Shown here: positions 13,906 through 27,176 of the stretch, in pieces
How the letters are laid out: every line of letters begins with the position of its first letter
How positions within the stretch are numbered: position 1 is the first letter of the stretch
Origin: Prochlorococcus sp. AG-409-P01
GTDB taxonomy: Bacteria; Cyanobacteriota; Cyanobacteriia; PCC-6307; Cyanobiaceae
DNA: 41,713 nucleotides
Assembly: GCA_003215335.1 (NCBI GenBank)
Contig: QCKM01000012.1
Location: 1-41,713 of the forward strand
Direction of reading: 5' to 3'
Made by a program: the position numbers and the translations under genes
The notes under the pieces: model-generated
What the model saw: only the letters and a program-made list of their open reading frames with translations
What the model was told of the DNA's origin: nothing
Databases searched by the model: none

Positions 13906-15456
13906 TTATTGTTCTATCTGATTTGCTAAAAAATTATTGTGATTTTCTCTACAATTAATAATAGCAACAGCTAAATTTGTAGTTAAAAAATCAAAACTAT
14001 AACTAGATGCCTGAGCAGCTAAAAAAGAAAAAGAAGAAATGAAAGAGTAATTAGATAAGGTTTTAAGGAAATCAGATCGATCGTTAAAGACTGATTCTGG
14101 GCTTTTTAAAGTTAATCTATGAATCGCTTTTTGAATACCAGATTTACTCTGAACAATAGGTGTACTAATACAAGATGAATGCCAAGTTGGTCCAAATGTA
14201 ATTCCAGGCTTTGAGGTTTGCAACCCTTCCCAAACTGTTGTACCTGTACATGAAGCAGTACAAATGCATTTGTCAATCAATTCATTGGAAGAAGTACTTA
14301 ATGGTGCAATCGTAACATTCGGCAAAGTAGATAGTTCTTTATATAGTTCTACTTCTGGAAAATTCATTCTACGAAGGTCAGGATATAAAAAATCATCTAA
14401 CTGTCTGGGATGTTCTTTGATAACTATTTTTATACTTGTTTCAAGAAGGGCGGAAGATAAAAGTTTCAATGCTGAAGCTTGATCATAATATTCAGATGCT
14501 TCTGGAATAGTTGTGCGTTCAGGTCGATAGTGTAAGGCATAATAAATAAATGACTCTGAGAAATCTACAGGGTTAGTATTTAAAAATAACCACTGCAAAG
14601 CTCTTATCCTCCTAACCGAACGTCGGACACGAAATAAGAGCATCCTTAATGAAGAATGCTGAAAATAAAGGTTATCAGGAGAAATCCAGTATTTAACCAC
14701 TTTTAGTGGCTGCTTTATAGTTGACAAAATAGCTTTGAAAAGCTCAAAGGGAGAATTTAATGAATAATATTTAGCCTTAAAAGGATTTTCACCCTGCAAT
14801 GCAAACCTTCTACCAACCATAGCCTTAGAATAAGTTGTTGCGTATGATTCTTTTTCTGAAGAAATAAATAAGAGGTCATCATCTGAAGAAACACCTGTAG
14901 ACGACAAATCAAGCAAAGATGAATAATTAGGTCTAAAGTCATGATCTAAAACCATATAATCAGTTATAGAAGTACGTCTAAGAATTATTGTTTCTCGGCC
15001 TAAGAACTTGGCAGCATAGAATAAAACAAATTCTGCAGGGAAATGTGGGACACAATGAAAAATAATTTTATTTATATCCTCCCTATTACGTAAATATCCA
15101 ATCCAATATGCAAGCAATTCCCTAAAGTAATTGTCGTTATATAAATTAGTTTTAGGTACTAAAAATATTCGATCAAGAATTCGTAAAAATCCACTCTTAC
15201 ATTCTGAAAAATACAAGTATTCTGATGAGTCCAGAATAGCCTTATCGGACAAAGGAAAAGCTTTGCCAACAGTTTCTAATCGGTATAGATAGTCATATTG
15301 TATAAGCTCTAATCCAGGCATCGTGGAAAAAATAGGAAGACTTTCTTTATCAGATAGAACGACAAGTTTCTGATTCCTTTCTTTAAGCTTACGTACAACT
15401 TCACAAAAAAATGGATCTAAAAAACCTACTAGAAGAAGTGTGCTTATAGATGACAT
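13906..15456 (-). CDS. Putative capsule/surface-polysaccharide biosynthesis protein
   Basis: A 516-residue protein without predicted signal peptide. The most recognisable part is in the second half: YYALHYRPERTTIPEASEYYDQ followed by KIVIKEHPRQ. That pattern (PE-T-P, then KEHP) recurs in capsule polysaccharide biosynthesis proteins related to KpsC/KpsS and in some GT-B glycosyltransferases. A later segment, CTGTTVWEGLQTSKPGITFG, has the T-x-WE-x-G-P pattern of a GT-B nucleotide-sugar site. A transferase role in surface glycan assembly is therefore likely, but donor and acceptor are unknown. It is the last gene of the minus-strand cluster, 54 bases after the glycosyltransferase-like gene. Its sequence is AT-rich, about 35% G+C in the one 60-base line I counted. 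Confidence 0.65.
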   Translation of the reverse strand: MSSISTLLLVGFLDPFFCEVVRKLKERNQKLVVLSDKESLPIFSTMPGLELIQYDYLYRLETVGKAFPLSDKAILDSSEYLYFSECKSGFLRILDRIFLVPKTNLYNDNYFRELLAYWIGYLRNREDINKIIFHCVPHFPAEFVLFYAAKFLGRETIILRRTSITDYMVLDHDFRPNYSSLLDLSSTGVSSDDDLLFISSEKESYATTYSKAMVGRRFALQGENPFKAKYYSLNSPFELFKAILSTIKQPLKVVKYWISPDNLYFQHSSLRMLLFRVRRSVRRIRALQWLFLNTNPVDFSESFIYYALHYRPERTTIPEASEYYDQASALKLLSSALLETSIKIVIKEHPRQLDDFLYPDLRRMNFPEVELYKELSTLPNVTIAPLSTSSNELIDKCICTASCTGTTVWEGLQTSKPGITFGPTWHSSCISTPIVQSKSGIQKAIHRLTLKSPESVFNDRSDFLKTLSNYSFISSFSFLAAQASSYSFDFLTTNLAVAIINCRENHNNFLANQIEQ

Positions 15457-15510: not shown

Positions 15511-16506
15511 TCATAAGATGAGCTGTGCAGCTTGCATGGCACCATTAGAGTCTAGTTTAAACCGATCAGATAGCATCTGATCGGTTGATAATTTTTGATC
15601 CAAAAATAAAGCAGCTGAATGCCATGCGTGCTCAAGATTATCCAATGCTTTGCCATATTTATAGCGATCAATACGAGATGCATTGAGGCAAATCTCTTGA
15701 TTATCCTCTTCAAAATAGGTAAATATTGGTACTCCTGAAACTATCAGATCAGTCAAGGTCCCAACACCAGCTCTTACAACTGCAAATCTCAAACGATGGT
15801 ACATATTAGGGGTATAATCTGCGGGTTGAATCCAATCAGGCATAGTACTTCTATATAATATTGGTTCAATCCAAAGAGTATTTAAATTAGGCTTAGGGAG
15901 TTTTATTATCTTGTTCAATAATGAGTTTGTAATAGATTCGCAATGTCCTCCTTTACCACAAGACAAAAGCGCATCTTCTCTTTCGTTCCCGATATGATTA
16001 GTTAATGAATCGAAAGAATATAATCCTACTCGATGGATCCTAGTCATTTCAGCTAAATAATCCGACTCAAATATTGAAGAAGTTATTAAGCGCGGAAAGG
16101 TGTTTAAAAGTAAGTCATCTATTTTTTGCTTATGGGACTGTGGAAAACACTTTAATGATCTGTGCCAGAAAAATGATCCTGAGATCCATGAATCAGGACG
16201 AACAGCAAGTATTTCCAGCAGATTATCACTAACAACAACATCAAATTGAGAAATTTCAGACTCCAATTTCTTAACAGCCTGAAAGTCTAAAAGGTATGGT
16301 TTAGATCTTTCAAAATAATTATCTATAGGATAAATTTGAGGAACCTTTACCAAATATATACTTGCTAGCTTATTCACTCGATCTTTAGGAGCAAATATAG
16401 TTACTTGAGCTCCTTGAACCCTAAGTTCATGGGCTAGGGACAACATTCTTCGAACATGACCTAAACCATTAGGACATGCTATTAAAGCAACTTCCTTCGC
16501 TCTCAT
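15511..16506 (-). CDS. GT-B glycosyltransferase-like protein (MurG/PseG superfamily)
   Basis: A 331-residue protein with the N-terminal motif CPNGLGHVRRMLSLAHELRVQG, the glycine-rich loop plus GHVRR found in MurG-type glycosyltransferases and in the UDP-sugar hydrolase PseG. The C-terminal half has VVRAGVGTLTDLIVSGVPIFTY followed by DNQEICLNASRI, matching the nucleotide-binding G-T-D/E-G-P-NQ pattern of the same superfamily. It could be a glycosyltransferase that adds a sugar to the glycan, or a diverged PseG that removes UDP from the PseC-derived intermediate; the sequence alone does not decide. The start overlaps the stop of the upstream dehydrogenase gene by 4 bases (ATGA). Confidence 0.65.
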   Translation of the reverse strand: MRAKEVALIACPNGLGHVRRMLSLAHELRVQGAQVTIFAPKDRVNKLASIYLVKVPQIYPIDNYFERSKPYLLDFQAVKKLESEISQFDVVVSDNLLEILAVRPDSWISGSFFWHRSLKCFPQSHKQKIDDLLLNTFPRLITSSIFESDYLAEMTRIHRVGLYSFDSLTNHIGNEREDALLSCGKGGHCESITNSLLNKIIKLPKPNLNTLWIEPILYRSTMPDWIQPADYTPNMYHRLRFAVVRAGVGTLTDLIVSGVPIFTYFEEDNQEICLNASRIDRYKYGKALDNLEHAWHSAALFLDQKLSTDQMLSDRFKLDSNGAMQAAQLIL

Positions 16507-18233
16507 TTATGGGGCGACATATAGCCCATAGTTGCATATGTATAGTCAGGTATATTTTCAATAGTCAACTTATCAAGTTGATGCCAACCATCAAAAATCA
16601 ATTTTTTATTAGAAGGATTATAATATGATTTTGATTTTGCATTGTCACGATGGTTATTTAAAATCAAAACGACATCAGAATCTATAATAGCCTGATCTAA
16701 AGAAGATGCTGGGTTTAATCCGATATCAACCAAAAGAGAAGAGGTGACAACAGCATCCCAGACAAAGAGTCTATAAACTTTATCTTTTAGGTGCTCACAT
16801 AAATATATAGATGTAGAATTTCTAATGTCAGAAGTATCAGGTTCTCCTTTAAAAGCTAAACCGACTATTAAAACCTTGAGGTGATTTAAATTAATGGCAT
16901 TTCTCTGGCAATAGTGATTAATAATAGTAAGTGGGTATTTAGAAGCCATTTCATTAATTGAGCGGCTGATATTTCCTAAGACCGCTTGATTTCGATTTCC
17001 CTGATGATCGGAGCCATATATTATCGGGTCTTTAGTTAAACAATACCCTCCAACACCTGGGCTAGGAGAAGGTATAACATTGCGAGGATAACCTTCATTA
17101 GCAGCTTGAATTAAATCAAATGCATCTACATTAAATTCATGTCCCAAAAGAGCTAATTCGTTAGAAAAAGCAAATGATAGATCTCGAAACGTGTTATTAG
17201 CAAGTTTGACCATCTCACTAGCTTCTAATGAAGATACCTGGACAACTGATGGTGTAAGTGTTGACCAGAATTGAGACGCCTTGCTAACACATGAATTACT
17301 AAAGCCACCGATCACTTGTGGTAGTGATCTTAATTCATGCATAGCCTTGCCCTCTATTGTTCTCTCTGGAGCAAATGCTACAGAAAAATTCTTTCCAGGT
17401 TCAAGTCCTGAGAGTCTAGACAAAGTTTTAATTACAATATTTCTAGTTGTTCCAATTGGTATCGTTGATCTAAGCATAACCAAATCACCATGTTTTAAGA
17501 GCCTGCCAATTACATTTAAAACGCTATTAAGGGCTTCAAGATTAGGGTGAAAAGAATCATCTAATGGTGTACCAACTGCAATTATGTATATATCATTATT
17601 AGGTAGCTTTAATTCTGATGAAAACTCAATAGATTTAGCTTCTAAAGCGGACTTCAACATCTCCTGTAGACCCGGCTCATAAATGTGTGGAATACCCTTG
17701 TCTAATTGAGCTCTAACACTCCGATTGATCTCAACACCAGTTACTAAATGTCCTCTACTAGCCAAAGCAACCGACAAAGTCAATCCTACATACCCCATTC
17801 CAAAAATAGCTACTGATTGATGACTACCACTTTGACTAATTAAAAGGTCGAAAAAGTCAAGTAAGTCAACCAAGACTCCCTTTTCATTTACCAAAGGAAT
17901 ATGCCTAATGCTATTAGAACTATGTCGTGGAGACTGGCGTACTAATCTATAAATCTCAGGTATGATTTTATCTACAGGCAAGTCTGATGAAACACTTATA
18001 GGGTCTTTTACCATTATTTCTGAAATCGGAGATTCAAAACTTACATTTTTTGTATATGCTCTCCGAACATCTCCATCAGTCACTATACCTATCAAATGAA
18101 AGGACTCATCAACAACCAGAGCAATTCCTTTATGTATAAGTTGATGCGATTTCTCCGCCATCAAACGAAGAGTAGAGTCAAGAGTATCTTCAGGAGATGC
18201 TATTACAACTAATTTTGAGAAATCTGGTTTCAT
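16503..18233 (-). CDS. Fusion of a CBS-domain pair and a UDP-sugar dehydrogenase
   Basis: A 576-residue fusion. Residues 1-135 are a CBS pair with LIGIVTDGDVRRAY (about 47-60) and IMVKDPISVSSD (about 73-84), of the type seen on sugar nucleotidyltransferases and KpsF-like isomerases. Residues 140-575 are a UDP-glucose/GDP-mannose dehydrogenase of the WecC/Ugd family. GMGYVG at 145-150 binds NAD, EASEMVKLANNTFRD lies at about 337-351, the catalytic Cys398 is in GVGGYCLTKDP, and GLAFKGEPDTSDIRNS marks the UDP-binding C-terminal domain. It should oxidise C6 of a UDP-hexose or UDP-HexNAc to the uronic acid. The CBS part could sense an adenine nucleotide. It overlaps both neighbours by 4 bases. The substrate is not determined. 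Confidence 0.87.
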   Translation of the reverse strand: MKPDFSKLVVIASPEDTLDSTLRLMAEKSHQLIHKGIALVVDESFHLIGIVTDGDVRRAYTKNVSFESPISEIMVKDPISVSSDLPVDKIIPEIYRLVRQSPRHSSNSIRHIPLVNEKGVLVDLLDFFDLLISQSGSHQSVAIFGMGYVGLTLSVALASRGHLVTGVEINRSVRAQLDKGIPHIYEPGLQEMLKSALEAKSIEFSSELKLPNNDIYIIAVGTPLDDSFHPNLEALNSVLNVIGRLLKHGDLVMLRSTIPIGTTRNIVIKTLSRLSGLEPGKNFSVAFAPERTIEGKAMHELRSLPQVIGGFSNSCVSKASQFWSTLTPSVVQVSSLEASEMVKLANNTFRDLSFAFSNELALLGHEFNVDAFDLIQAANEGYPRNVIPSPSPGVGGYCLTKDPIIYGSDHQGNRNQAVLGNISRSINEMASKYPLTIINHYCQRNAINLNHLKVLIVGLAFKGEPDTSDIRNSTSIYLCEHLKDKVYRLFVWDAVVTSSLLVDIGLNPASSLDQAIIDSDVVLILNNHRDNAKSKSYYNPSNKKLIFDGWHQLDKLTIENIPDYTYATMGYMSPHK

Positions 18234-19201
18234 GCAATATTAATGTCCTCCCAATTATAGATCATACGGGATCCATTTATACTTTCACTCCTAGGACTTG
18301 CAAATCTACCTCGATAATAATCGCGATTTAATAGTTCAGCTTCAGATAAGAATCTATGCTCATTCCCTAGTAAAACTTCTGACCATTTTGGGTAATCATG
18401 ATTCATGATATCTAAACGTTCGGCTTTTGAAAGCTTTGAAAAATCAGCTAATTCTTTAAGTGCTTTTGGATCAATAGATACTGGGCCATCCTTAGTTTCA
18501 TGGGTATCTAAGATTGTAAAATGTCTCTCAATTATCTCAGCCCCCATTGTGATAGCAGCCTTTGAAGCAATTAATCCATCTCTGGCAAAGAGTGAATGAT
18601 CAGAAAAGCCAACAGAGGGCGCCAACTCCTTTAACCAATTCATTCGTGCCAAATGCATCTCATGTAGAGGTGTAGGGTATAAAGTAACACAATGCAAAAA
18701 AGAGAATTTAGTGCCATGCAAAATTTCAGAGGCTTTTATAACCTCATCTTCGTAAGATGCACCAGTAGAAACAATAATTTCGTCAAATAGACTCCTTAAA
18801 TCACGAAGTAAAGGAAAAGATGCGCAATCATAACTTGCAACTTTAATTGATCTAAAGCCCATCTCCGATAAACTTTTTGCTTGACATCTTGTAAAACACG
18901 TAGTCATTGGTATAAGCCCATATTCTTTACATCTACCAATAAAAGTCAGCGTTTCCGTTTCAGTTATCTCAAGCTTTTTCAATCTATTATATTCATCAAT
19001 GTAAGGGCGCTTAATAAATTTAATAACTCCATTGATTTCTAATCCTTCTTCAAACTGTGGTCTATAAGCTACCGTGTCAGCCGAAATAGATTGCATCTTT
19101 CCATGGGTTGCTCCTGATTCAGCAGCCTGATCTATCATTCTACTTAAGGTATCGATATTGCCATTATGGTTTTGGCAAAATTCTGCAATTAATTTTGTCA
19201 T
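18230..19201 (-). CDS. NeuB-family sugar acid synthase lacking a full SAF domain
   Basis: A 323-residue homologue of the sialic/legionaminic/pseudaminic acid synthases, which condense phosphoenolpyruvate with an amino sugar. The TIM barrel is complete: IAEFCQNHNGN at 5-15, a Lys at 35 in GKMQ (usually VKFQ), IKVASYDCASFPLL at 119-132, LHCVTLYPTP at 169-178, GFSDHS at 198-203 and ERHFT at 225-229, so the expected metal and substrate histidines are kept. The C-terminal antifreeze-like SAF domain, about 55-60 residues in characterised NeuB proteins, is cut to roughly 28 residues after YYRGRFASPR. The next gene starts within the stop codon (ATGA overlap), and I see no frameshifted remainder of SAF. 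The exact product is unknown. Confidence 0.85.
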   Translation of the reverse strand: MTKLIAEFCQNHNGNIDTLSRMIDQAAESGATHGKMQSISADTVAYRPQFEEGLEINGVIKFIKRPYIDEYNRLKKLEITETETLTFIGRCKEYGLIPMTTCFTRCQAKSLSEMGFRSIKVASYDCASFPLLRDLRSLFDEIIVSTGASYEDEVIKASEILHGTKFSFLHCVTLYPTPLHEMHLARMNWLKELAPSVGFSDHSLFARDGLIASKAAITMGAEIIERHFTILDTHETKDGPVSIDPKALKELADFSKLSKAERLDIMNHDYPKWSEVLLGNEHRFLSEAELLNRDYYRGRFASPRSESINGSRMIYNWEDINIA

Positions 19202-19272
19202 GATTTGAGTTTAGATTTTCCAGATTGAAACCTTGAACAATGCAATAATAAGCATATTAGTATTTCATTAGA

Positions 19273-20229
19273 TTAGTGTCCACTTCTTTCCACATATTCA
19301 AAATATCTATCAAGTATGAATCGATCCGTTTTTTCGACACTCTCATATGTAGCCCCTCCAATATGAGGTGAAATGAGTAGATTCTCATTTTCCTGAGAAT
19401 AAACGATCAATGGGTGTTTTTTTCCGTTTAATATTAGAGATTCATTTTCAACAACATCAAGTGCTGCGCCTGCGAATGTCTTGTTCTTCAAGGCTTTTAA
19501 TAATGCAATTTCGTCTATAATTGCTCCTCTTGAAGTATTTATCAATACTGATTCCTTTCCTAATAGACTCAATTCTTGCTCTCCAATCATATGATAGTTT
19601 CTGGTATTTAATGGGACATGTAAAGTCACTATATCAGAAATAGAAAACAATTTCTGGATGTTATTTTCTCGATAGGAACCCGAAGGTAATCGTTTAATCC
19701 AAGGATCATAAATATGCACATCCATTCCAAATGCCAAACAAATACGTGCAACTTTATTACCAAGTCTTCCACAACCAACAATACCTAATTTTTTTCCTGC
19801 TAATTCATGGCCTCTAAATAAACCTGGATTCCAAATCCCTTGTTTAGTTGCAGCAAATGCGGAAGACAAGTTGCGTTGAAGACTAAGCATTAAAGCTATT
19901 GTCAACTCTGAAGTAGCAGAGATTTGTTTAAGAAATCTTTTTTGGCCTCTCAAATGAAAAACTTTGACCGAAAATTTCTCAGCTGATTTCATATCAATAT
20001 GATCAAGCCCAGTTGTTGGTGAAAGGATGGCAGTAAGTCTTCTTGCAGACTGCAGAAGACATGTAGAAACTTTTGTATTAAAGCGAATTAATACTGCATC
20101 ATATTCTGGTGCTAAAGCTTCAAATTTAGATTGTGTTAGCTCCTCTTTAAATAGATCAGCTCGAGAGGCAGCATATTGCAAACCAGAATCACTAAAGCTA
20201 GATGGCTCCGGGCAAAGTATTTTAAGCAT
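19273..20229 (-). CDS. D-2-hydroxyacid dehydrogenase (SerA-like)
   Basis: An NAD(P)-dependent dehydrogenase of 318 residues in the family of D-3-phosphoglycerate dehydrogenase. It has the Rossmann motif GIVGCGRLGNKVA, then VTLHVPLN, INTSRGAIIDE with the catalytic arginine, GAALDVVENE with the catalytic glutamate, and ISPHIGGAT with the catalytic histidine. It lacks the C-terminal ACT domain of housekeeping SerA, so a pathway-specific role is likely. It lies 3 bases after the NeuA-like gene and 71 bases before the NeuB-like gene. A 2-hydroxyacid dehydrogenase is not part of the standard nonulosonic acid pathways. It could reduce or oxidise a 2-keto or 2-hydroxy acid in this cluster; the substrate is unknown. 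Confidence 0.87.
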   Translation of the reverse strand: MLKILCPEPSSFSDSGLQYAASRADLFKEELTQSKFEALAPEYDAVLIRFNTKVSTCLLQSARRLTAILSPTTGLDHIDMKSAEKFSVKVFHLRGQKRFLKQISATSELTIALMLSLQRNLSSAFAATKQGIWNPGLFRGHELAGKKLGIVGCGRLGNKVARICLAFGMDVHIYDPWIKRLPSGSYRENNIQKLFSISDIVTLHVPLNTRNYHMIGEQELSLLGKESVLINTSRGAIIDEIALLKALKNKTFAGAALDVVENESLILNGKKHPLIVYSQENENLLISPHIGGATYESVEKTDRFILDRYFEYVERSGH

Positions 20230-20232
20230 AAT

Positions 20233-20937
20233 TTAGTTGGTTGATTCTTTTAACAAAATCTCGGCCATTTTAAAATCCAAATAGGTATCTATATTTATAG
20301 AGTCTCTAAGATCCATTTCTATCCCAAGGCAATCTGTGCCAACAATAGTATTTTTAAGCGCTATTAAATCTCGCTTAGCTAAATAAATCGCTCCATTTCT
20401 TATATATACTTTGGGCAAGTCTTGTCTTGGTCTCATATCCTCAAATCCTTGATCTACTAGATTAATCAGCTTGTTACCGATTAATCGTTTCATGCGAAAT
20501 GGGTGATGACCTTCAACTGAAACTACGCTAACAACACTGTCGCATGGATTAGAAGTCATCATTTGAATAGCAGAGACAATATGATGTGATTTACGTAAAG
20601 GTGTAGTTGGTTGCAACATCAAAACTGCATCATAAAAATTTAAACCTCTTTTACTGTCCTCCATATGCGACAAAGCATGTTTCAAAACAGGCGCAGATTG
20701 TGCTTGATCCGTCGCCAAATCATGAGGACGTATAAAAGGAACATTCACGCCTAAATTTTCACCTATAGACGCAATCTCTTCATCTTCTGTACTTAAGATT
20801 AAGTCTGTTATTAATTCGACTTTTTGAGCTTCCTCTATTGTATAAGCAATCAACGGCTTACCATCAATTAACGCTATATTTTTTCGCGGCACTGTCTTTG
20901 AACCACCTCTTGCTGGAATAACTCCTAAAATATTCAT
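20233..20937 (-). CDS. NeuA-like cytidylyltransferase (CMP-sugar acid synthetase)
   Basis: A 234-residue enzyme of the CMP-N-acetylneuraminate synthetase family, which activates a sugar acid with CTP. The N-terminus has IPARGGSKTVPRKNI, the CTP-binding loop of the family. LMLQPTTPLR follows at about residue 110, RPRQDLPKVYIRNGAIYLA at about 170-190 and a conserved D-x-D near the end (DSINIDTYLDF). It is short and lacks the extra phosphatase domain of some NeuA proteins. It lies between the TylF-like gene (7 bases away) and the 2-hydroxyacid dehydrogenase gene (3 bases away). The product of the nearby NeuB-like synthase is the natural candidate substrate. Confidence 0.88.
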   Translation of the reverse strand: MNILGVIPARGGSKTVPRKNIALIDGKPLIAYTIEEAQKVELITDLILSTEDEEIASIGENLGVNVPFIRPHDLATDQAQSAPVLKHALSHMEDSKRGLNFYDAVLMLQPTTPLRKSHHIVSAIQMMTSNPCDSVVSVVSVEGHHPFRMKRLIGNKLINLVDQGFEDMRPRQDLPKVYIRNGAIYLAKRDLIALKNTIVGTDCLGIEMDLRDSINIDTYLDFKMAEILLKESTN

Positions 20938-20944
20938 AGGAAAA

Positions 20945-21718
20945 TCAGAGTTTTACAACAGACCATCTTTCAAATTGATCCCCTGGTTTCAATGGTGACA
21001 TAATCATACGGTGCTGGTGATCAGCCAAAAATTGATCGCAAGCAATCTTAGCTCCAGGAAATTTTAAAGACCAATATTCATCTAAATAACAAAGTCCACC
21101 TTTGATTAATCTAGGCCAAACAAAGTTAAAAGTAGTTATATATGATTCAAATAAATCACAATCAAACATTGACGCGAAAATTTTCATAGGGAATTGCTCT
21201 TCATTCATTGTGTCTGAAAAGTTACCTTCTACCAGGACAATATTATCTAAGCCTAGTAATTCTATTTTTTTATTTAAAACTTGCTTAGACGTATTCGAGA
21301 AATTACCGCTTGAAGATATAGTTGAAGCATTTACATCTTCGGTCTGCAGATAATGCTTGATAGCCAAATTCTTCTTGATAGATTCATAATGCTCACGATG
21401 AATATCGCCTGATTCGAAAAGTTGATCAAATTTACTCATGTGATCATTTTGATGATAAATAGGCGGGAAACCACTAAAGGAGTCAAATCCATAGACTTTT
21501 TTAGGAGAATCAATTTCTTTTAATAAAAGTGCTGTTGCTAATAAACTTTTTCCTCTGAAAACACCTGCCTCTACAATGTCTCCTTCAGAATGACTATCAT
21601 TCAAACGAATATAATTAAAATAGGCATCATGAGGACCTGGTTTTCTATAATCATATATCCCGAGAGAGTTAAACTCCCAGTCATATTTTAAATTAATTTG
21701 ATTGTTTTTAGATGTCAT
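20945..21718 (-). CDS. TylF/MycF-like SAM-dependent methyltransferase
   Basis: A protein of 257 residues counted from the ATG at 21718; a TTG seven codons upstream is less likely. It resembles the macrocin O-methyltransferase family (TylF, MycF) that methylates sugar hydroxyls. VEAGVFRGKSLLATALLL matches the SAM-binding loop, VYGFDSFSGFPP follows, then VEGNFSDT and a FDCDLFESY metal-binding-like stretch, and GGLCYLDEYW. A role in O-methylating a sugar of the surface glycan is inferred. It heads the second half of the minus-strand cluster after a 193-base gap that may carry a promoter. Confidence 0.78.
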   Translation of the reverse strand: MTSKNNQINLKYDWEFNSLGIYDYRKPGPHDAYFNYIRLNDSHSEGDIVEAGVFRGKSLLATALLLKEIDSPKKVYGFDSFSGFPPIYHQNDHMSKFDQLFESGDIHREHYESIKKNLAIKHYLQTEDVNASTISSSGNFSNTSKQVLNKKIELLGLDNIVLVEGNFSDTMNEEQFPMKIFASMFDCDLFESYITTFNFVWPRLIKGGLCYLDEYWSLKFPGAKIACDQFLADHQHRMIMSPLKPGDQFERWSVVKL

Positions 21719-21911: not shown

Positions 21912-22814
21912 TCATATAGGCCACAGCCTTGGATCGATTAATCTTGGTTCATCTAAAGACTGTTGATATAAAACCTGAAGCATATCAGAATCAAGAGCAC
22001 CAAATTCAGCAGATTTTAAGGCAGTCTCCAACTCGGATCTCTTGGTTGGGCCTATTAGAACATAATCTACGCATGGATCACTTATACAAAAGCGCAAAGC
22101 GATCTCTGGGAGTTGTTGTAGTGAGCATTTGCAAGTCTTCTGAATAGAGAGAACATGGCTCTTAAGCAAGCGCATTTGATAAGGCAAGCTGTTAACTCTT
22201 GGCGTAAGGGTACCTTTCAGAAAAGCTGAGCGAGTAATTAATTTGACGCCAGAGGACCTGGCTAAATGGAAAACTTTAGAAGACATTCTTTGGTCTAATA
22301 AATTATAAGGAACCTGGACTATACGGATCCAACCCAACTCCAGTGCAATCAAGGCTTCTTCTTCTGTATAAATAGAAGCCCCCAACTCGCCTATGATTCC
22401 ATCTTCCACGAAAGGCTTAAAGATCTCATTTAGCTTTTCTATTTTAAGGAGTTCTATAGATGAATTATGAATCTTAAGTACATCTAATTTATCTCTATTT
22501 AATTCTTTCAAACTCTTCTTTAATGATGAATGTATTAACTCTTTCGCTATCCTATTACCTCCTAAAAAGTCTGAAGGATTAAGTGCCACTTTTGAAGATA
22601 TAGTTGCATCATTAATTCCAGCCAAAGCCACCCCAATTAATTTTTCAGCATCACCATATGTTGGGGCAGTATCAAAAAAACGAATGCCTTCATCATAAGC
22701 TTGTCTGATAATCTTTAGAGATTCATCCCTATGCGTACTAGCATGGTATGGATCAAAAGAACTTAAGCCATATTGCATGCCAAGGCCAACTGTTCCCAAA
22801 GCAAGTTTACTCAT
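21912..22814 (-). CDS. Aldo/keto reductase, surface sugar cluster type
   Basis: A 300-residue NAD(P)H-dependent oxidoreductase of the aldo/keto reductase fold. GTVGLGMQYG opens the barrel. FFDTAPTYGDAEKLIG contains the catalytic Asp and Tyr, KVAL carries the catalytic Lys position, and LDVLKIHN holds the His. VDYVLIGPTKRSELE near the end is the NADP-binding pattern. Such reductases occur in spore-coat and nonulosonic acid gene clusters, where their exact step is not settled. Its start overlaps the stop of the aminotransferase gene by 4 bases (ATGA). It ends ahead of the 193-base gap, so it is the last gene of the upstream sub-operon. Confidence 0.85.
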   Translation of the reverse strand: MSKLALGTVGLGMQYGLSSFDPYHASTHRDESLKIIRQAYDEGIRFFDTAPTYGDAEKLIGVALAGINDATISSKVALNPSDFLGGNRIAKELIHSSLKKSLKELNRDKLDVLKIHNSSIELLKIEKLNEIFKPFVEDGIIGELGASIYTEEEALIALELGWIRIVQVPYNLLDQRMSSKVFHLARSSGVKLITRSAFLKGTLTPRVNSLPYQMRLLKSHVLSIQKTCKCSLQQLPEIALRFCISDPCVDYVLIGPTKRSELETALKSAEFGALDSDMLQVLYQQSLDEPRLIDPRLWPI

Positions 22815-24112
22815 TCTCGTGTCAATCTCTTAAAGCCTTTGTGAGCTACAGGTCCCCTAAGAGATTCAGAAGCATCTAGTTTCAAAATGCTACCAAAAAC
22901 TTCATCAACTGCTTCACCATATTGATCTATATGGACATTTTGATGAGCTAAACACGGCTTAAACTGACGAAAAGCTAAAAACCCTTTATCAAGCATTAGT
23001 GTTGTAAAAAGTGTCTGAAGTTCCTGATTATTTGGAAGATCAAATTGAAAATTTGCAAGTGTTGGCAGACCAGAGATTTGTATAGGTATCGAATTTTTTA
23101 TTGCAGCATTCTTCCATATTTCCTTGACACGATTTCCCATCTTAATGATATGTTGATCTACCCGGCAATCAACATATTTTTCAATAGTTGCTAATGATGC
23201 TGTTGGTCCAATTCTCTCAGTCCAATTTGTACTGGAAAGAAATGTTTTTTGAGCAGCTTCCATTACATCTGAAACACCCATAATCGCAGACATGGCATAA
23301 CCATTAGCCATCGATTTAGCAATTACAGCAAGATGCGGATTAACGTTATATCGCAAGTGAATACAACCTGGATTCATTCTAAAAGCAGAAGTTATCTCAT
23401 CAAATATCAAAACAGCTCCAATAGACTCAGCCTCTTTCTTCAAATCCAAAAGATAATTTGGCTGAGCCTCTTCGGCCCGTGCAGGTTCAAGCACAATAGC
23501 AGCCACCTCATTCTCTCTACCTTGAATCGCAGACTTTAAGCTTTTAATTGAATCTGTCAAAAAAGGAACCGATGTTCCTTCAAGGCTTTTAGGAACACCT
23601 ACAGGATCCAATCCGGGCATTAGATGACCATCTAATGCTTCCTTACTACTTAAGTTGGCGGCTAAATACCAATCTCCACAGCCATGATAACCACTAAAGA
23701 CAACTAAATCACGGGCAGTGGCAGCACGGGCAATACGAATAGCATTGCTCATAGCCTCCCCTCCACTCCTCGAATAACGAACCATTTCTACCCAAGGGTG
23801 TAACTCAACCAAGAGTTCTGCTAGCTGAACCTCCTCGGGACAATTGAGACTTGAAGAAACTCCATTATTAATAGATTTTATGACTTCTCCATCAACCTCA
23901 TCATCGGCATATCCCAAGATGCATGCGCCCACATTCAAGATGCTCATATCAATCCAACGAGTACCATCAACACCCCAAACATCTACACCCTTGGCCCTGC
24001 TGTAATAAGCAGGCCAAACATCTGGTGCAAAAAGTTCGGGGCGCTTAGAAAAAAGCTGAGTACCACCAGGAATTAATTGGCGGGCTCGCCGATACAATTC
24101 AGGACCATTCAT
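22811..24112 (-). CDS. Class III PLP aminotransferase (glutamate-1-semialdehyde mutase-like)
   Basis: A 433-residue pyridoxal phosphate enzyme of the HemL-like group. The N-terminus PGGTQLFSKRPELF resembles the start of GSA aminomutase. SGGEAMSNAIRIARA at about 116-130 binds the cofactor phosphate, FDEITSAFR at 237-245 holds the PLP-binding Asp, and AKSMANGYAMSAIMG carries the Schiff-base Lys266. It is unlikely to be the housekeeping HemL, because it lies within a sugar cluster and overlaps both neighbours by 4 bases. Similar genes sit beside SpsF-like cytidylyltransferases in other surface glycan loci. It could aminate or isomerise an amino-keto intermediate; the substrate is unknown. Confidence 0.83.
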   Translation of the reverse strand: MNGPELYRRARQLIPGGTQLFSKRPELFAPDVWPAYYSRAKGVDVWGVDGTRWIDMSILNVGACILGYADDEVDGEVIKSINNGVSSSLNCPEEVQLAELLVELHPWVEMVRYSRSGGEAMSNAIRIARAATARDLVVFSGYHGCGDWYLAANLSSKEALDGHLMPGLDPVGVPKSLEGTSVPFLTDSIKSLKSAIQGRENEVAAIVLEPARAEEAQPNYLLDLKKEAESIGAVLIFDEITSAFRMNPGCIHLRYNVNPHLAVIAKSMANGYAMSAIMGVSDVMEAAQKTFLSSTNWTERIGPTASLATIEKYVDCRVDQHIIKMGNRVKEIWKNAAIKNSIPIQISGLPTLANFQFDLPNNQELQTLFTTLMLDKGFLAFRQFKPCLAHQNVHIDQYGEAVDEVFGSILKLDASESLRGPVAHKGFKRLTRE

Positions 24113-24909
24113 TCTTGCCTACCAGTATCTACATTATTGTCCCAAAGTGATTCATAGCCTTCATGACCAATCCACTTGGCATTGATCTTGTTTAGCTCAG
24201 GTTGCTCCTTAAGTAGTGCTAAAACATCATCCATGCCAAAATGTTCTCCATTAGGGCCTAACGCAGCAAAAACCTGTCTGACAAAAGAAAGGTCTTCCTG
24301 ATGATCTACGGTCCACCTTTGCAAGGAATAATCCTCAGACGACCTTAATGAGCCCACTCTAAATCGATTTGGTTGCCGCCATAGGAAACTAGTTACATGC
24401 TCCCTATCATCTTTTGATCTAGCTTCTTTCCACGCAGTGGAAAGTGCTGAATAACTAAAGCACTCTGCATCTAAACCATTTGGATAGCAACCATCGTCCA
24501 AGTGGATTGAACCTGCCCCAGCCGCTATGGAGGCATATTCATAATTCCCTTCAAAAAATAAGTTCAATAGCTTAGAAATTAATGAAGACTCGATCAAAGG
24601 ACAATCTGCTGTAATTCGTACAATACAATTTGCATTGTTAATAGTAGCTGCATTATAAAACCTATCTAAAACATCATCTCTACTACCAGCAAAACAAGTT
24701 ATATTTTTTTTTCTGCAAAATTCTTGAATAATCTCATCTTCTAATTCTGTTGAGGTTGCCACTATTACATCATCTAAATCATCAACAGCTCTCAATCTTT
24801 CAATAATATGTTGAAGCATTGGCCTGTCCTCTATAAGCTCCATTACCTTTCCAGGCAGACGAGAAGAGCTCATTCTTGCTTGAATTATAGCCTTACAAAA
24901 GTCAATCAT
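24109..24909 (-). CDS. SpsF-like cytidylyltransferase
   Basis: A 266-residue nucleotidyltransferase similar to SpsF of Bacillus spore coat clusters and to acylneuraminate cytidylyltransferases. IIQARMSSSRLPGKVM at the N-terminus is the family CTP-binding loop, VIVATSTELEDE follows, then FAGSRDDVLDRFY and VRITADCPL with the metal-binding acidic residue, and later LDAECFSYSAL. It is distinct from the NeuA-like protein in the same cluster, so two CTP-dependent activation steps may exist. Its stop region overlaps the aminotransferase start by 4 bases; 66 bases separate it from pseC. The function by family is sugar acid or polyol activation with CTP; the substrate is not known. Confidence 0.85.
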   Translation of the reverse strand: MIDFCKAIIQARMSSSRLPGKVMELIEDRPMLQHIIERLRAVDDLDDVIVATSTELEDEIIQEFCRKKNITCFAGSRDDVLDRFYNAATINNANCIVRITADCPLIESSLISKLLNLFFEGNYEYASIAAGAGSIHLDDGCYPNGLDAECFSYSALSTAWKEARSKDDREHVTSFLWRQPNRFRVGSLRSSEDYSLQRWTVDHQEDLSFVRQVFAALGPNGEHFGMDDVLALLKEQPELNKINAKWIGHEGYESLWDNNVDTGRQE

Positions 24910-24975
24910 AATCTATAAATAGTAATGGTAAAAAGAATAAGAGTCCGCCTAGAGTATTTAATACAAAGCATATGG

Positions 24976-26160
24976 TTATAAGCTTTTAAGCAGTGCATTC
25001 TCGAGCTCTGCAACAACGCGCTTCTGATCTTCCTCGGTCAATCCAGGGAACAACGGCAAGCTAATTACACTAGATGAATAAGTTTCGGAAACCGGGAAGT
25101 CACCAACATTGAAACCACGATTTCTATAATAAGGCTGCAAGTGAACAGGTGAATAATGCAACTGCACTCCAATATTTGCCGAGCGCATTAATTGAAAAAT
25201 TTGCTTATGCTTTTGTCTAGAAGCTGACAAAAAACGAACAACAGCAAGGTGTCCTGCTGTGCGAACATCTTCTGGTATACTCAATAACTCCATAGGTAGA
25301 TTAATTAAAAGTTTGCGATAATTTTCAAGTAATCGATTGCGTTCATCAACTATATATTCCAGTTGCTTTAACTGACTTAATCCAAGTGCCGCTTGTAAAT
25401 CTGTAATTCTGTAATTAAAACCTAAGTTTTGTTGTTCATAGCCCCATGGACCTGCTTCCTCATAATGAAATCTTTTCTTATCGCGAACAATGCCATGATT
25501 TCTAATATCACGCATATAGTCCGAAAGCTCAGGTATATTTGTAGTTGCCATACCTCCCTCGCCAGTAGTAATAATTTTAACTGGATGAAAACTGAAAACT
25601 GTTATTGAGCTATTTCGACAACTTCCTACTTTTTGCTTCTTATATGTTCCTCCAATAGCATGACTTGCATCTTCCAAAATTGAGAAACCATATCTTTTTG
25701 ATAATGAAGAAATAGCTTCCATATCGCAGCTACTTCCTGCAAGGTGTACAGGAACAATAACTTTTGGAAGTTTCCCGACTGATTCTGCTATCTCCAACTT
25801 ATGTTCAAGGCAGGGTATGCTCATCAAACCAGTGGAAATGTCAATATCTACAAAATCAACTTCCGCCCCACAATATCTTCCACAATTTGCAGAAGCCACA
25901 AATGTAATTGGTGTTGTCCATAAGTAATCTCCAGGTCCAAGCCCTAGTGCTAAACAAGCAATATGTAAAGCACTCGTTGCACTATTAACGCCAATTGCAT
26001 ATTGAACAGAAACTTTTGCAGCAATTGCTTGTTCAAAAGCAGGCAATACTGGTCCCTGGGTGATCCAATTGCTCCGAAGCACCTCTGTAACTGCTAAAAT
26101 ATCATCTTCAGTAATATTCTGGCGACCGTAAGGTAAGAACGGAGGTTCATAATTAATCAT
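24976..26160 (-). CDS. pseC: UDP-4-keto-6-deoxy-HexNAc aminotransferase, PseC type
   Basis: A 394-residue PLP aminotransferase of the DegT/DnrJ/EryC1/PseC family, which puts an amino group on C4 of the PseB product. LPYGRQNITEDDI at the N-terminus and NWITQGP near residue 31 are typical. EDASHAIGGTY lies at about 163-173, and the PLP lysine is Lys195 in FSFHPVKIITTGEGG. A second signature, NHGIVRDKKRF, and GFNYRITDLQAALG follow. The start overlaps the stop of pseB by 4 bases (ATGA), the classic PseB-PseC pairing. The family gives UDP-4-amino-4,6-dideoxy-beta-L-AltNAc. Confidence 0.93.
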   Translation of the reverse strand: MINYEPPFLPYGRQNITEDDILAVTEVLRSNWITQGPVLPAFEQAIAAKVSVQYAIGVNSATSALHIACLALGLGPGDYLWTTPITFVASANCGRYCGAEVDFVDIDISTGLMSIPCLEHKLEIAESVGKLPKVIVPVHLAGSSCDMEAISSLSKRYGFSILEDASHAIGGTYKKQKVGSCRNSSITVFSFHPVKIITTGEGGMATTNIPELSDYMRDIRNHGIVRDKKRFHYEEAGPWGYEQQNLGFNYRITDLQAALGLSQLKQLEYIVDERNRLLENYRKLLINLPMELLSIPEDVRTAGHLAVVRFLSASRQKHKQIFQLMRSANIGVQLHYSPVHLQPYYRNRGFNVGDFPVSETYSSSVISLPLFPGLTEEDQKRVVAELENALLKSL

Positions 26161-27176
26161 AAAGGTATAAAATTATGATCTACATGCTTAGTAATTAGTT
26201 CACGCAAATCATTTACCTTAAGAAACCTAGGGTTATCACCTGAATTATAAGAAAATCCGGGTTTTACAGCGGTAAAATCAATGCCAAGCTCTTTATATTT
26301 CTTCAGCAGGACTCCATCACTAGGCAAAATCGCATAATACTCTCCGAGATCTATCGTTGTAAGACTATCCGACGTTGTAATCATTTCTTCATGCACTTTT
26401 TCGCCAGGCCTTATTCCTATTACGGTTTTTTTGCAATTAGGTCCAATCGCTTCAGCAAGATCTGTAATTCTATAGCTAGGTATTTTAGGTACAAACAACT
26501 CGCCACCCAATGCATTCTCTAAAGCCCAGAGAACCATGTTTACCCCTTCATTCAGAGAAATATTAAATCGGGTCATTTGAGGATCGGTAATTGGCAAAGT
26601 TCCATTCTTTGCTTTCTCAAGAAAAAAAGGTATTACAGATCCCCTAGAACCCATAACATTTCCATAACGAACTACTGAAAGCCTTAAGTCTCTAGCTCCT
26701 TTTATATTATTAGTAGCAATAAATAATTTATCGGAACATAATTTAGTTGCTCCATAAAGATTAATAGGAGCAGCTGCTTTATCTGTACTTAAAGCAATCA
26801 CGCGTCTTACCGACGTATCAAGACATGCCTGTAATAGATTTTCTGCTCCAAGAACATTAGTATTGATAAATTCCATTGGATTATATTCAGCAGCTGGAAC
26901 CTGTTTAAGTGCTGCAGCATGAATAACAGTATCCACACCAACCAAAGCTCTTCTCAAGCGATCTCTATCTCGAACATCTCCAATAAAAAATCGAAGTTGA
27001 GGATATTCTTTTTCTGGATAAATTTGCTGAAGTTCCCATTGCTTCAACTCATCCCGACTATAAATAACAAACCGCTTTACATCAGGATATCTTCGAAACG
27101 TTTCCGCAATAAAAACCCTTCCGAAACTGCCAGTGCCACCTGTAATTAAAATGCCTGAGTCTGAGTTGAAAGTCAT
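26157..27176 (-). CDS. pseB: UDP-GlcNAc 4,6-dehydratase (inverting), PseB type
   Basis: A 339-residue short-chain dehydrogenase/reductase that converts UDP-GlcNAc to UDP-4-keto-6-deoxy-L-AltNAc, the first step of pseudaminic-type pathways. GGTGSFG at 13-19 binds NADP, YSRDELKQWELQ at about 39-50 is a PseB/FlaA1 hallmark, HAAALKQVPAAEYNP follows, STDKAAAPINLYGATK at 130-145 holds the catalytic Asp-Lys and Tyr-x-x-x-Lys, and RYGNVMGSRGSVIPFF follows. It lacks membrane helices, so it is the soluble short form. It is followed by pseC with a 4-base overlap and preceded by rfbB with a 78-base gap. Confidence 0.94.
   Translation of the reverse strand: MTFNSDSGILITGGTGSFGRVFIAETFRRYPDVKRFVIYSRDELKQWELQQIYPEKEYPQLRFFIGDVRDRDRLRRALVGVDTVIHAAALKQVPAAEYNPMEFINTNVLGAENLLQACLDTSVRRVIALSTDKAAAPINLYGATKLCSDKLFIATNNIKGARDLRLSVVRYGNVMGSRGSVIPFFLEKAKNGTLPITDPQMTRFNISLNEGVNMVLWALENALGGELFVPKIPSYRITDLAEAIGPNCKKTVIGIRPGEKVHEEMITTSDSLTTIDLGEYYAILPSDGVLLKKYKELGIDFTAVKPGFSYNSGDNPRFLKVNDLRELITKHVDHNFIPL

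Follow-up and report, generated by a model that had tools for sequence, protein, structure and literature searches.

Why would a gene for a 2-hydroxyacid dehydrogenase lie within a set of genes for sialic-acid-like sugars? The question is raised by a 41,713-nucleotide stretch of DNA from Prochlorococcus sp. AG-409-P01 (GenBank assembly GCA_003215335.1, contig QCKM01000012.1, positions 1 to 41,713; hereafter the window), in which such a dehydrogenase (HADH) is encoded between homologues of NeuB and NeuA. The usual way to predict nonulosonic acid pathways is to look for a few genes (NeuC, PseB, LegB and so on). A sequence-only reading of the window had proposed that four adjacent minus-strand genes, HADH among them, form an undescribed sugar-acid pathway to which the dehydrogenase is functionally linked, and this proposal is supported here by linkage across phyla, by NeuA-HADH fusions and by the presence of a separate SerA in the genome. 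We give a probability of about 0.5 to the following reading: the genes of the block make up a dedicated pathway, spread by horizontal transfer, whose product is a CMP-activated and probably methylated ulosonic (sialic-acid-like) acid of undescribed structure, and HADH probably acts at the 2-oxo/2-hydroxy acid of this product. The genes concerned are the following:

15511-16506, minus strand: GT331, a GT-B fold protein of 331 residues with a PseG-like GxGHxxR motif, predicted to be a UDP-sugar hydrolase or glycosyltransferase
16503-18233, minus strand: CBS-UGD, two CBS repeats fused to a predicted UDP-HexNAc/UDP-hexose 6-dehydrogenase, with the catalytic Cys398 kept
18230-19201, minus strand, 323 aa: NeuB of a clade without the SAF domain, a predicted phosphoenolpyruvate-condensing ulosonate synthase (NeuB PF03102, 158 bits against a cut-off of 22.1)
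19273-20229, minus strand, 318 aa: HADH, a member of a nonulosonic-acid-linked D-2-hydroxyacid dehydrogenase subfamily (2-Hacid_dh_C, 168 bits, above cut-off)
20233-20937, minus strand, 234 aa: NeuA, a CMP-ulosonate (PseF/NeuA-like) cytidylyltransferase (CTP_transf_3, 69.9 bits, above cut-off)
20945-21718 (ATG start) or to 21739 (in-frame TTG), minus strand: a TylF-like methyltransferase, a variable tailoring gene (TylF PF05711, 58 bits against a cut-off of 23)

The open reading frames confirm the places of the four genes first proposed and their spacers of 71 (NeuB-HADH), 3 (HADH-NeuA) and 7 bases, and all four family names agree with Pfam (NeuB, 2-Hacid_dh_C, CTP_transf_3 and TylF, each above its cut-off). 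The limits given to the block were too narrow, as the run extends beyond position 18230 into two conserved partners that had been left out: the CBS-UGD gene overlaps the NeuB stop, GT331 overlaps CBS-UGD, and both recur beside this type of NeuB in other genomes. As for the methyltransferase, its family assignment was correct, but it is the least conserved of the four genes across loci, with relatives at L045 (37% identity) and L057 (28%) and unrelated methyltransferases elsewhere.

The dehydrogenase was followed with a profile of the block HADHs, searched in 25 genomes and in 398 Pseudomonadota. In cellular genomes, all 36 matches of at least 256 bits, among them the window and L069, lie within 2.5 kb of NeuA and/or NeuB, and none of 20 lower-scoring 2-hydroxyacid dehydrogenases (234 bits or less) has NeuA or NeuB within 1.5 kb; a frame-shifted member of the subfamily at L087 is linked as well. 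The starting set had been found through NeuB, and the 24 hits from the 398 Pseudomonadota (beyond the centre genome) were chosen without regard to neighbourhood. These 36 linked HADHs do not amount to 36 independent events, because the rows fall into few lineages. NeuA adjoins HADH at most loci, and nine NeuA-HADH fusions were found, each in one frame of about 590-630 residues, one of them confirmed with Pfam.

In the window HADH the two Pfam domains of the D-2-hydroxyacid dehydrogenase superfamily are present, as are its catalytic Arg, Glu and His, and beta2 ends in Asp175, as in NAD-type enzymes. The linked HADHs (37 rows) occupy one side of a branch in the tree (support 91/85), and all 37 keep the catalytic triad of R234, E/D263 and H289 (R234, E263 and H289 in the window). 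Every one of them has His77, where 18 of 20 other 2-hydroxyacid dehydrogenases have Asn, and every one has an insertion of 4-5 residues near the substrate loop (around residues 95-104) that is found in 0/20 of the others. On this sequence evidence, HADH is a distinct 2-hydroxyacid dehydrogenase subfamily.

Could HADH nevertheless be an ordinary SerA paralogue that is carried along in polysaccharide loci and has no pathway role? Its sequence is SerA-like, although it scores 193.5 bits with the SerA equivalog TIGR01327 (the PGDH model), under the cut-off of 454. The sequence-only reading had itself named two weak points, namely that the dehydrogenase might be the genome's only SerA and that the block might never recur. 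Neither applies: the genome has a separate full-length SerA (contig C5:146051-146581, 206 bits, 528-554 aa), so the window HADH is not a serine-pathway enzyme, and the neighbourhood is found again in Alphaproteobacteria, Gammaproteobacteria, Planctomycetota, Bacteriovoracaceae, Saprospiraceae and Nitrospirae. Given also the 36/36 linkage, the nine fusions, the separate subfamily and the retention of HADH in phages beside NeuA and NeuB, we hold the paralogue explanation to be extremely improbable. A dedicated role of HADH in sugar-acid metabolism is, in our judgment, very probable.

Because the catalytic residues are retained, HADH would be expected to carry out ordinary 2-oxo/2-hydroxy acid chemistry. 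A different view is that it serves as a redox epimerase or tailoring enzyme at a carbon other than C2 (e.g. C4, C7 or C8) of the free or CMP-bound acid, outside normal 2-hydroxyacid chemistry. The tight linkage and fusion to NeuA would suit such an enzyme, and a shift in substrate is suggested by the clade-specific His77 and by the insertion close to the substrate loop, but the Arg, Glu/Asp and His kept in 37/37 rows speak against it, since their geometry puts hydride transfer next to the carboxylate. We regard this view as quite unlikely.

The second line of evidence for a dedicated ulosonic acid pathway comes from NeuB. Scanning genome contigs with the window NeuB yielded 25 loci at 46-64% identity, in records labelled Alphaproteobacteria, Gammaproteobacteria, Planctomycetota, Bacteriovoracaceae, Saprospiraceae, Sulfuricurvum, Nitrospirae, Elusimicrobia, Armatimonadetes and others, and in many of these loci NeuA, HADH, NeuB, CBS-UGD and GT331 are grouped together. 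Across the catalytic barrel, the clade to which the window NeuB belongs can be aligned with canonical NeuB, and the Glu, Lys, Gln and His motifs are kept. Within this clade ASYDC replaces the usual Glu motif, a new segment on the acceptor side takes the place of the acceptor loop (FEEG...IKRPY..EY.RLK, of which the basic IKRPY is conserved), and the C-terminal tail is conserved (NRDYYRGRF...YNWE; in the window LLNRDYYRGRFAS...IYNWE). No SAF domain was matched in the window NeuB or in those of L065, L055, L050 and L061, and the domain is absent from every clade member tested. The window NeuB also remains under both relevant equivalogs, with 150 bits for NeuB (TIGR03569, cut-off 399.65) and 117 bits for PseI (TIGR03586, cut-off 340).

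The genome (1.78 Mb, 31 contigs), whose size, relatives and chlorophyll-synthase-like gene would fit a marine picocyanobacterium, has four NeuB homologues, and the other three (L072, L073 and L074, on contigs C10, C1 and C4) carry SAF domains; HisH/HisF-like and N-acetyl sugar amidotransferase-like genes occur near two of these loci. As a control, further NeuB loci from this genome and from related ones were examined: HADH lies near one of them (L008, which is the L069 site), and no CBS-UGD, GT331 or Nudix gene was found within 1.5 kb of any. A tie between SAF loss and HADH was considered and dropped, as NeuBs of the GT2 type that are linked to HADH often have SAF, and NeuBs of the Nudix type lack both SAF and HADH. 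The NeuB clade is absent from the plasmids searched, where HADH matches were weak only. The block was probably acquired by horizontal transfer, because the G+C content over 12-30 kb of the window (34-40%) is below that of the flanks (mostly 39-46%) and the nearest relatives of its NeuB come from other phyla.

CBS-UGD accompanies the NeuB clade at 22 of 28 loci (at one of them on another contig of the same genome), and an unfused UGD is present at two more; the remaining four lack UGD, two of these being cut by contig ends. Full-length CBS-UGD was found in none of 397 sampled Pseudomonadota and in one of 394 sampled Bacteroidota, there within a NeuA-NeuB-CBS-UGD-GT331 set, and a search of the same Bacteroidota for the NeuB clade returned exactly the genomes holding CBS-UGD. 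The association of CBS-UGD with the NeuB clade is far beyond chance. The enzyme scores 329 bits against the nucleotide sugar dehydrogenase model TIGR03026 (cut-off 189.8), and Cys398, the catalytic Cys of UGD, is invariant. The best equivalog for the UGD part is UDP-ManNAc dehydrogenase (WecC, NF008286), for which its score is under the cut-off (216 against 459 bits).

A third feature of the loci is an exchange of partners. GT331 is present in 15 loci and a protein of 220-300 residues (family C5) in nine, most of the latter with a HAD phosphatase (C9) nearby; no locus has both. The C5 protein has a Nudix-like box and a predicted structure (AlphaFold2 pLDDT 89), for which Foldseek returned mainly Nudix-fold chains, including NUDT17, MutT and NUDT22; a Pfam search gave no Nudix match, so that its assignment is supported by the box and the predicted fold only. 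GT331 is predicted to adopt a GT-B fold (AlphaFold2 pLDDT 89), and it has the GxGHxxR motif known from PseG. Because two unrelated proteins take the same place and exclude each other, GT331 and the Nudix-fold protein may share one job, the freeing of the sugar from UDP before NeuB acts. HADH is distributed unevenly between the two forms, at 8/15 loci of the GT331 form and 0/9 of the Nudix form. L068 (G059), from the same family as the window genome, has the Nudix form (CBS-UGD, Nudix, NeuB) and the window genome has the GT331 form; both forms therefore entered one bacterial family.

These observations can be arranged into a putative route to the CMP-activated acid. CBS-UGD would oxidise C6 of a UDP-sugar to give a UDP-uronic acid, and GT331 would hydrolyse the UDP-sugar as PseG does, a step left in the sister form to a Nudix-fold pyrophosphatase, mostly accompanied by a HAD phosphatase. 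The SAF-less NeuB would then condense the free sugar with phosphoenolpyruvate into an acid with two terminal carboxylates (an ulosaric acid), of which NeuA would make the CMP derivative. HADH would perform an NAD-dependent 2-oxo/2-hydroxy acid interconversion, most likely on the sugar acid itself, and TylF would methylate. The condensation and the CMP transfer are what the enzyme families predict; the oxidation and the sugar release are suggested by conserved motifs and linkage, and the ulosaric acid is a putative product. The sugar acid is the likeliest substrate of HADH: among the pathways that carry this enzyme, the one 2-oxo/2-hydroxy acid group present in every case is C1-C2 of the ulosonic acid. 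For this particular block a second candidate is the alpha-hydroxy acid that CBS-UGD would create at the opposite end of the molecule. The idea that HADH acts on that acid only was demoted, since HADH is found in NeuC clusters and in stand-alone sets without UGD.

The recurrent linkage is strongly supported; the proposed chemistry has several observations to contend with. Two loci, L058 and L067, have the NeuB clade without any UGD in the available DNA. HADH in turn is missing from more than half of the CBS-UGD loci, and it occurs without CBS-UGD at L106 and L107 (NeuC clusters) and at L141, so it cannot depend on a uronate. The contexts in question are NeuC-NeuA-HADH (L106) and NeuB-NeuA-HADH-NeuC (L107), with NeuC over its cut-off, and a stand-alone NeuA-HADH-NeuB-GT2 set between unrelated genes (L141). 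GT331 falls far below the PseG cut-off (TIGR03590, E 2.8e-5, a weak match of 23.9 bits against 153.55), and its best Foldseek/VIA matches are GT1 glycosyltransferases, MurG and a UDP-GlcNAc 2-epimerase, PseG not being among the matches listed; the sugar-release step may therefore be wrong. Finally, an acid reduced at C2 could no longer be activated with CMP there, and the direction, timing or carbon of the reaction could differ. The sequence-only reading had suggested a reduced or otherwise altered, possibly methylated CMP-sugar acid. We retain the CMP-sugar acid, with reduction as one of several possible chemistries and an awkward one, since reducing C2 removes the anomeric centre that CMP activation needs. 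C2 chemistry of HADH on the sugar acid is accordingly put forward as a tentative proposal.

The same observations can be accounted for in another way. The block might make an ordinary nonulosonic acid from HexNAc, with CBS-UGD and GT331 serving the surrounding glycan (as source of a uronic acid and as transferase) and HADH providing the small D-2-hydroxy acid (glycerate, lactate or glycolate) of an N- or O-acyl substituent on the sugar. Hydroxyacyl groups are known on bacterial nonulosonic acids, the best structural matches of GT331 are indeed glycosyltransferases, and HADH is similar to SerA, to glyoxylate reductase and to D-lactate dehydrogenases. In the stand-alone set (L141), however, HADH comes with neither an acyl-activating gene nor a conserved acyltransferase gene, the NeuA-HADH fusion points to the sugar acid and not to a side substrate, and the GT331/Nudix swap would be difficult to understand for a GT331 that is a glycosyltransferase and nothing else. 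Taken together, these points make the hydroxyacyl explanation unlikely, and we keep to a dedicated route in which HADH probably acts on the acid itself. Separately, an acetyltransferase-like (hexapeptide type) or carbamoyltransferase-like gene may adjoin HADH in the stand-alone block (L138, L139 and L140), which suggests that tailoring there is variable.

With the HADH alignment as query, viral contigs yielded 80 loci (54 non-redundant), and 47 of the 54 have NeuA and/or NeuB within 5 kb. The order NeuA-HADH-NeuB-GT2 seen among them is that of the cellular stand-alone set, and a terminase was found in eight of 22 viral records tested, on contigs of 48 to 341 kb. No SAF domain was found in the phage NeuBs tested (266-267 residues). 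PHROGs gave no family for the NeuB and NeuA of these modules, and the INPHARED phages gave only SerA-like or host-type matches and nothing of the HADH block. At L161, L176, L180, L189, L213, L205, L226 and L230, NeuA-HADH-NeuB-GT2 or HADH-cytidylyltransferase-NeuB modules lie in glycan islands of large tailed phages, with some of the cytidylyltransferases about 180 residues long. A UGD-like protein of about 280 residues is encoded in the same islands (L161:9463-10311 and L176:5310-6164); that of L161 has the NAD-binding and central domains and shows no match to the C-terminal UDP-binding domain.

The genes that flank the block in the window are as follows:

13906-15456, minus strand: a 516-aa protein adjoining GT331 in the same direction, possibly the transferase for the product
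21912-27176, minus strand: aldo-keto reductase, GSA-type aminotransferase, SpsF-like cytidylyltransferase, PseC and PseB, upstream sugar genes of a possible second, partial pathway

The 516-aa protein has no Pfam or NCBIfam match and no relative in the 25 NeuB-clade loci. The upstream genes may represent a second amino-sugar or sugar-acid pathway. They also raise the question of whether the block belongs to a modified pseudaminic acid pathway that uses PseB and PseC, with the NeuB described here as its PseI. PseC (525 bits) and PseB (496 bits) are both over their equivalog cut-offs and on the same strand as the block, and PseF is the nearest family of NeuA, which is under that equivalog (TIGR03584, 148.7 bits against 205.7). 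Set against this are the score of NeuB under the 340-bit PseI cut-off and its lack of SAF, the three other, SAF-bearing NeuB homologues of the genome, which could serve PseB and PseC, and the conservation pattern: the upstream genes are not conserved around the NeuB clade in other genomes, PseB or PseC appearing there only sporadically (L045 and L053). We therefore find a pseudaminic acid origin very unlikely and return to the dedicated route described above.

The open literature contained no paper describing a 2-hydroxyacid dehydrogenase in a nonulosonic acid pathway or CBS-UGD with NeuB, subscription papers being outside the search. Systems of this kind are known, but this variant and its enzyme subfamily seem not to have been described. 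L. santarosai showed no identifiable nonulosonic acid in an alpha-keto-acid assay (DMB) (PMC3438082) and is mentioned in passing, without follow-up, in PMC4758666, which is no more than suggestive. If the dehydrogenase reduces such products, they could escape surveys that use alpha-keto-acid reagents. The linkage, and at times fusion, of a 2-hydroxyacid dehydrogenase to NeuA in many lineages and in phages points to an overlooked step of sugar-acid metabolism, and CBS-UGD with GT331 or Nudix and a SAF-less NeuB offers a concrete, testable route to dicarboxylic ulosonic acids. It is possible, if somewhat doubtful, that the CBS-UGD/NeuB-clade block represents the first biosynthetic route to CMP-activated ulosaric acids to be recognised and that HADH is a new step on an activated-sugar-acid branch common to several nonulosonic pathways in bacteria and large phages.

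How does the block compare with known systems? The product type expected of UGD plus NeuB, an ulosaric acid, has a counterpart in 3-deoxy-D-lyxo-heptulosaric acid (Dha) of rhamnogalacturonan II, which differs in being a plant sugar of 7 carbons and for which the enzymes of biosynthesis and the activated form are still unknown (PMC12168206). With the bacterial sialic acid pathway (NeuC, NeuB, NeuA) the block shares phosphoenolpyruvate condensation and subsequent CMP activation by NeuB/NeuA-family proteins, and HADH is found within such a set at L107; the window block differs in having no NeuC, a NeuB without SAF and at 150 bits against the 400-bit cut-off, and CBS-UGD, GT331 and HADH as additions. 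Likeness to the pseudaminic acid pathway (PseB, C, H, G, I, F) is seen in the PseF-like NeuA and in the GxGHxxR motif and weak PseG profile match of GT331, but the window NeuB is not PseI by cut-off, and that pathway has no UDP-sugar dehydrogenase or 2-hydroxyacid dehydrogenase. The UGD part has its nearest equivalog in the WecC family of UDP-N-acetyl-mannosamine dehydrogenases, with the catalytic Cys and the GVGG motif kept, and is set apart from it by the N-terminal CBS pair, a score under the WecC cut-off and a place beside NeuB. HADH, lastly, has the fold, the NAD site and the catalytic Arg, Glu and His of SerA and other D-2-hydroxyacid dehydrogenases, from which it is distinguished by the lack of a regulatory C-terminal domain, by His77 in place of Asn, by the 4-5 residue insertion and by its linkage and fusion to NeuA.

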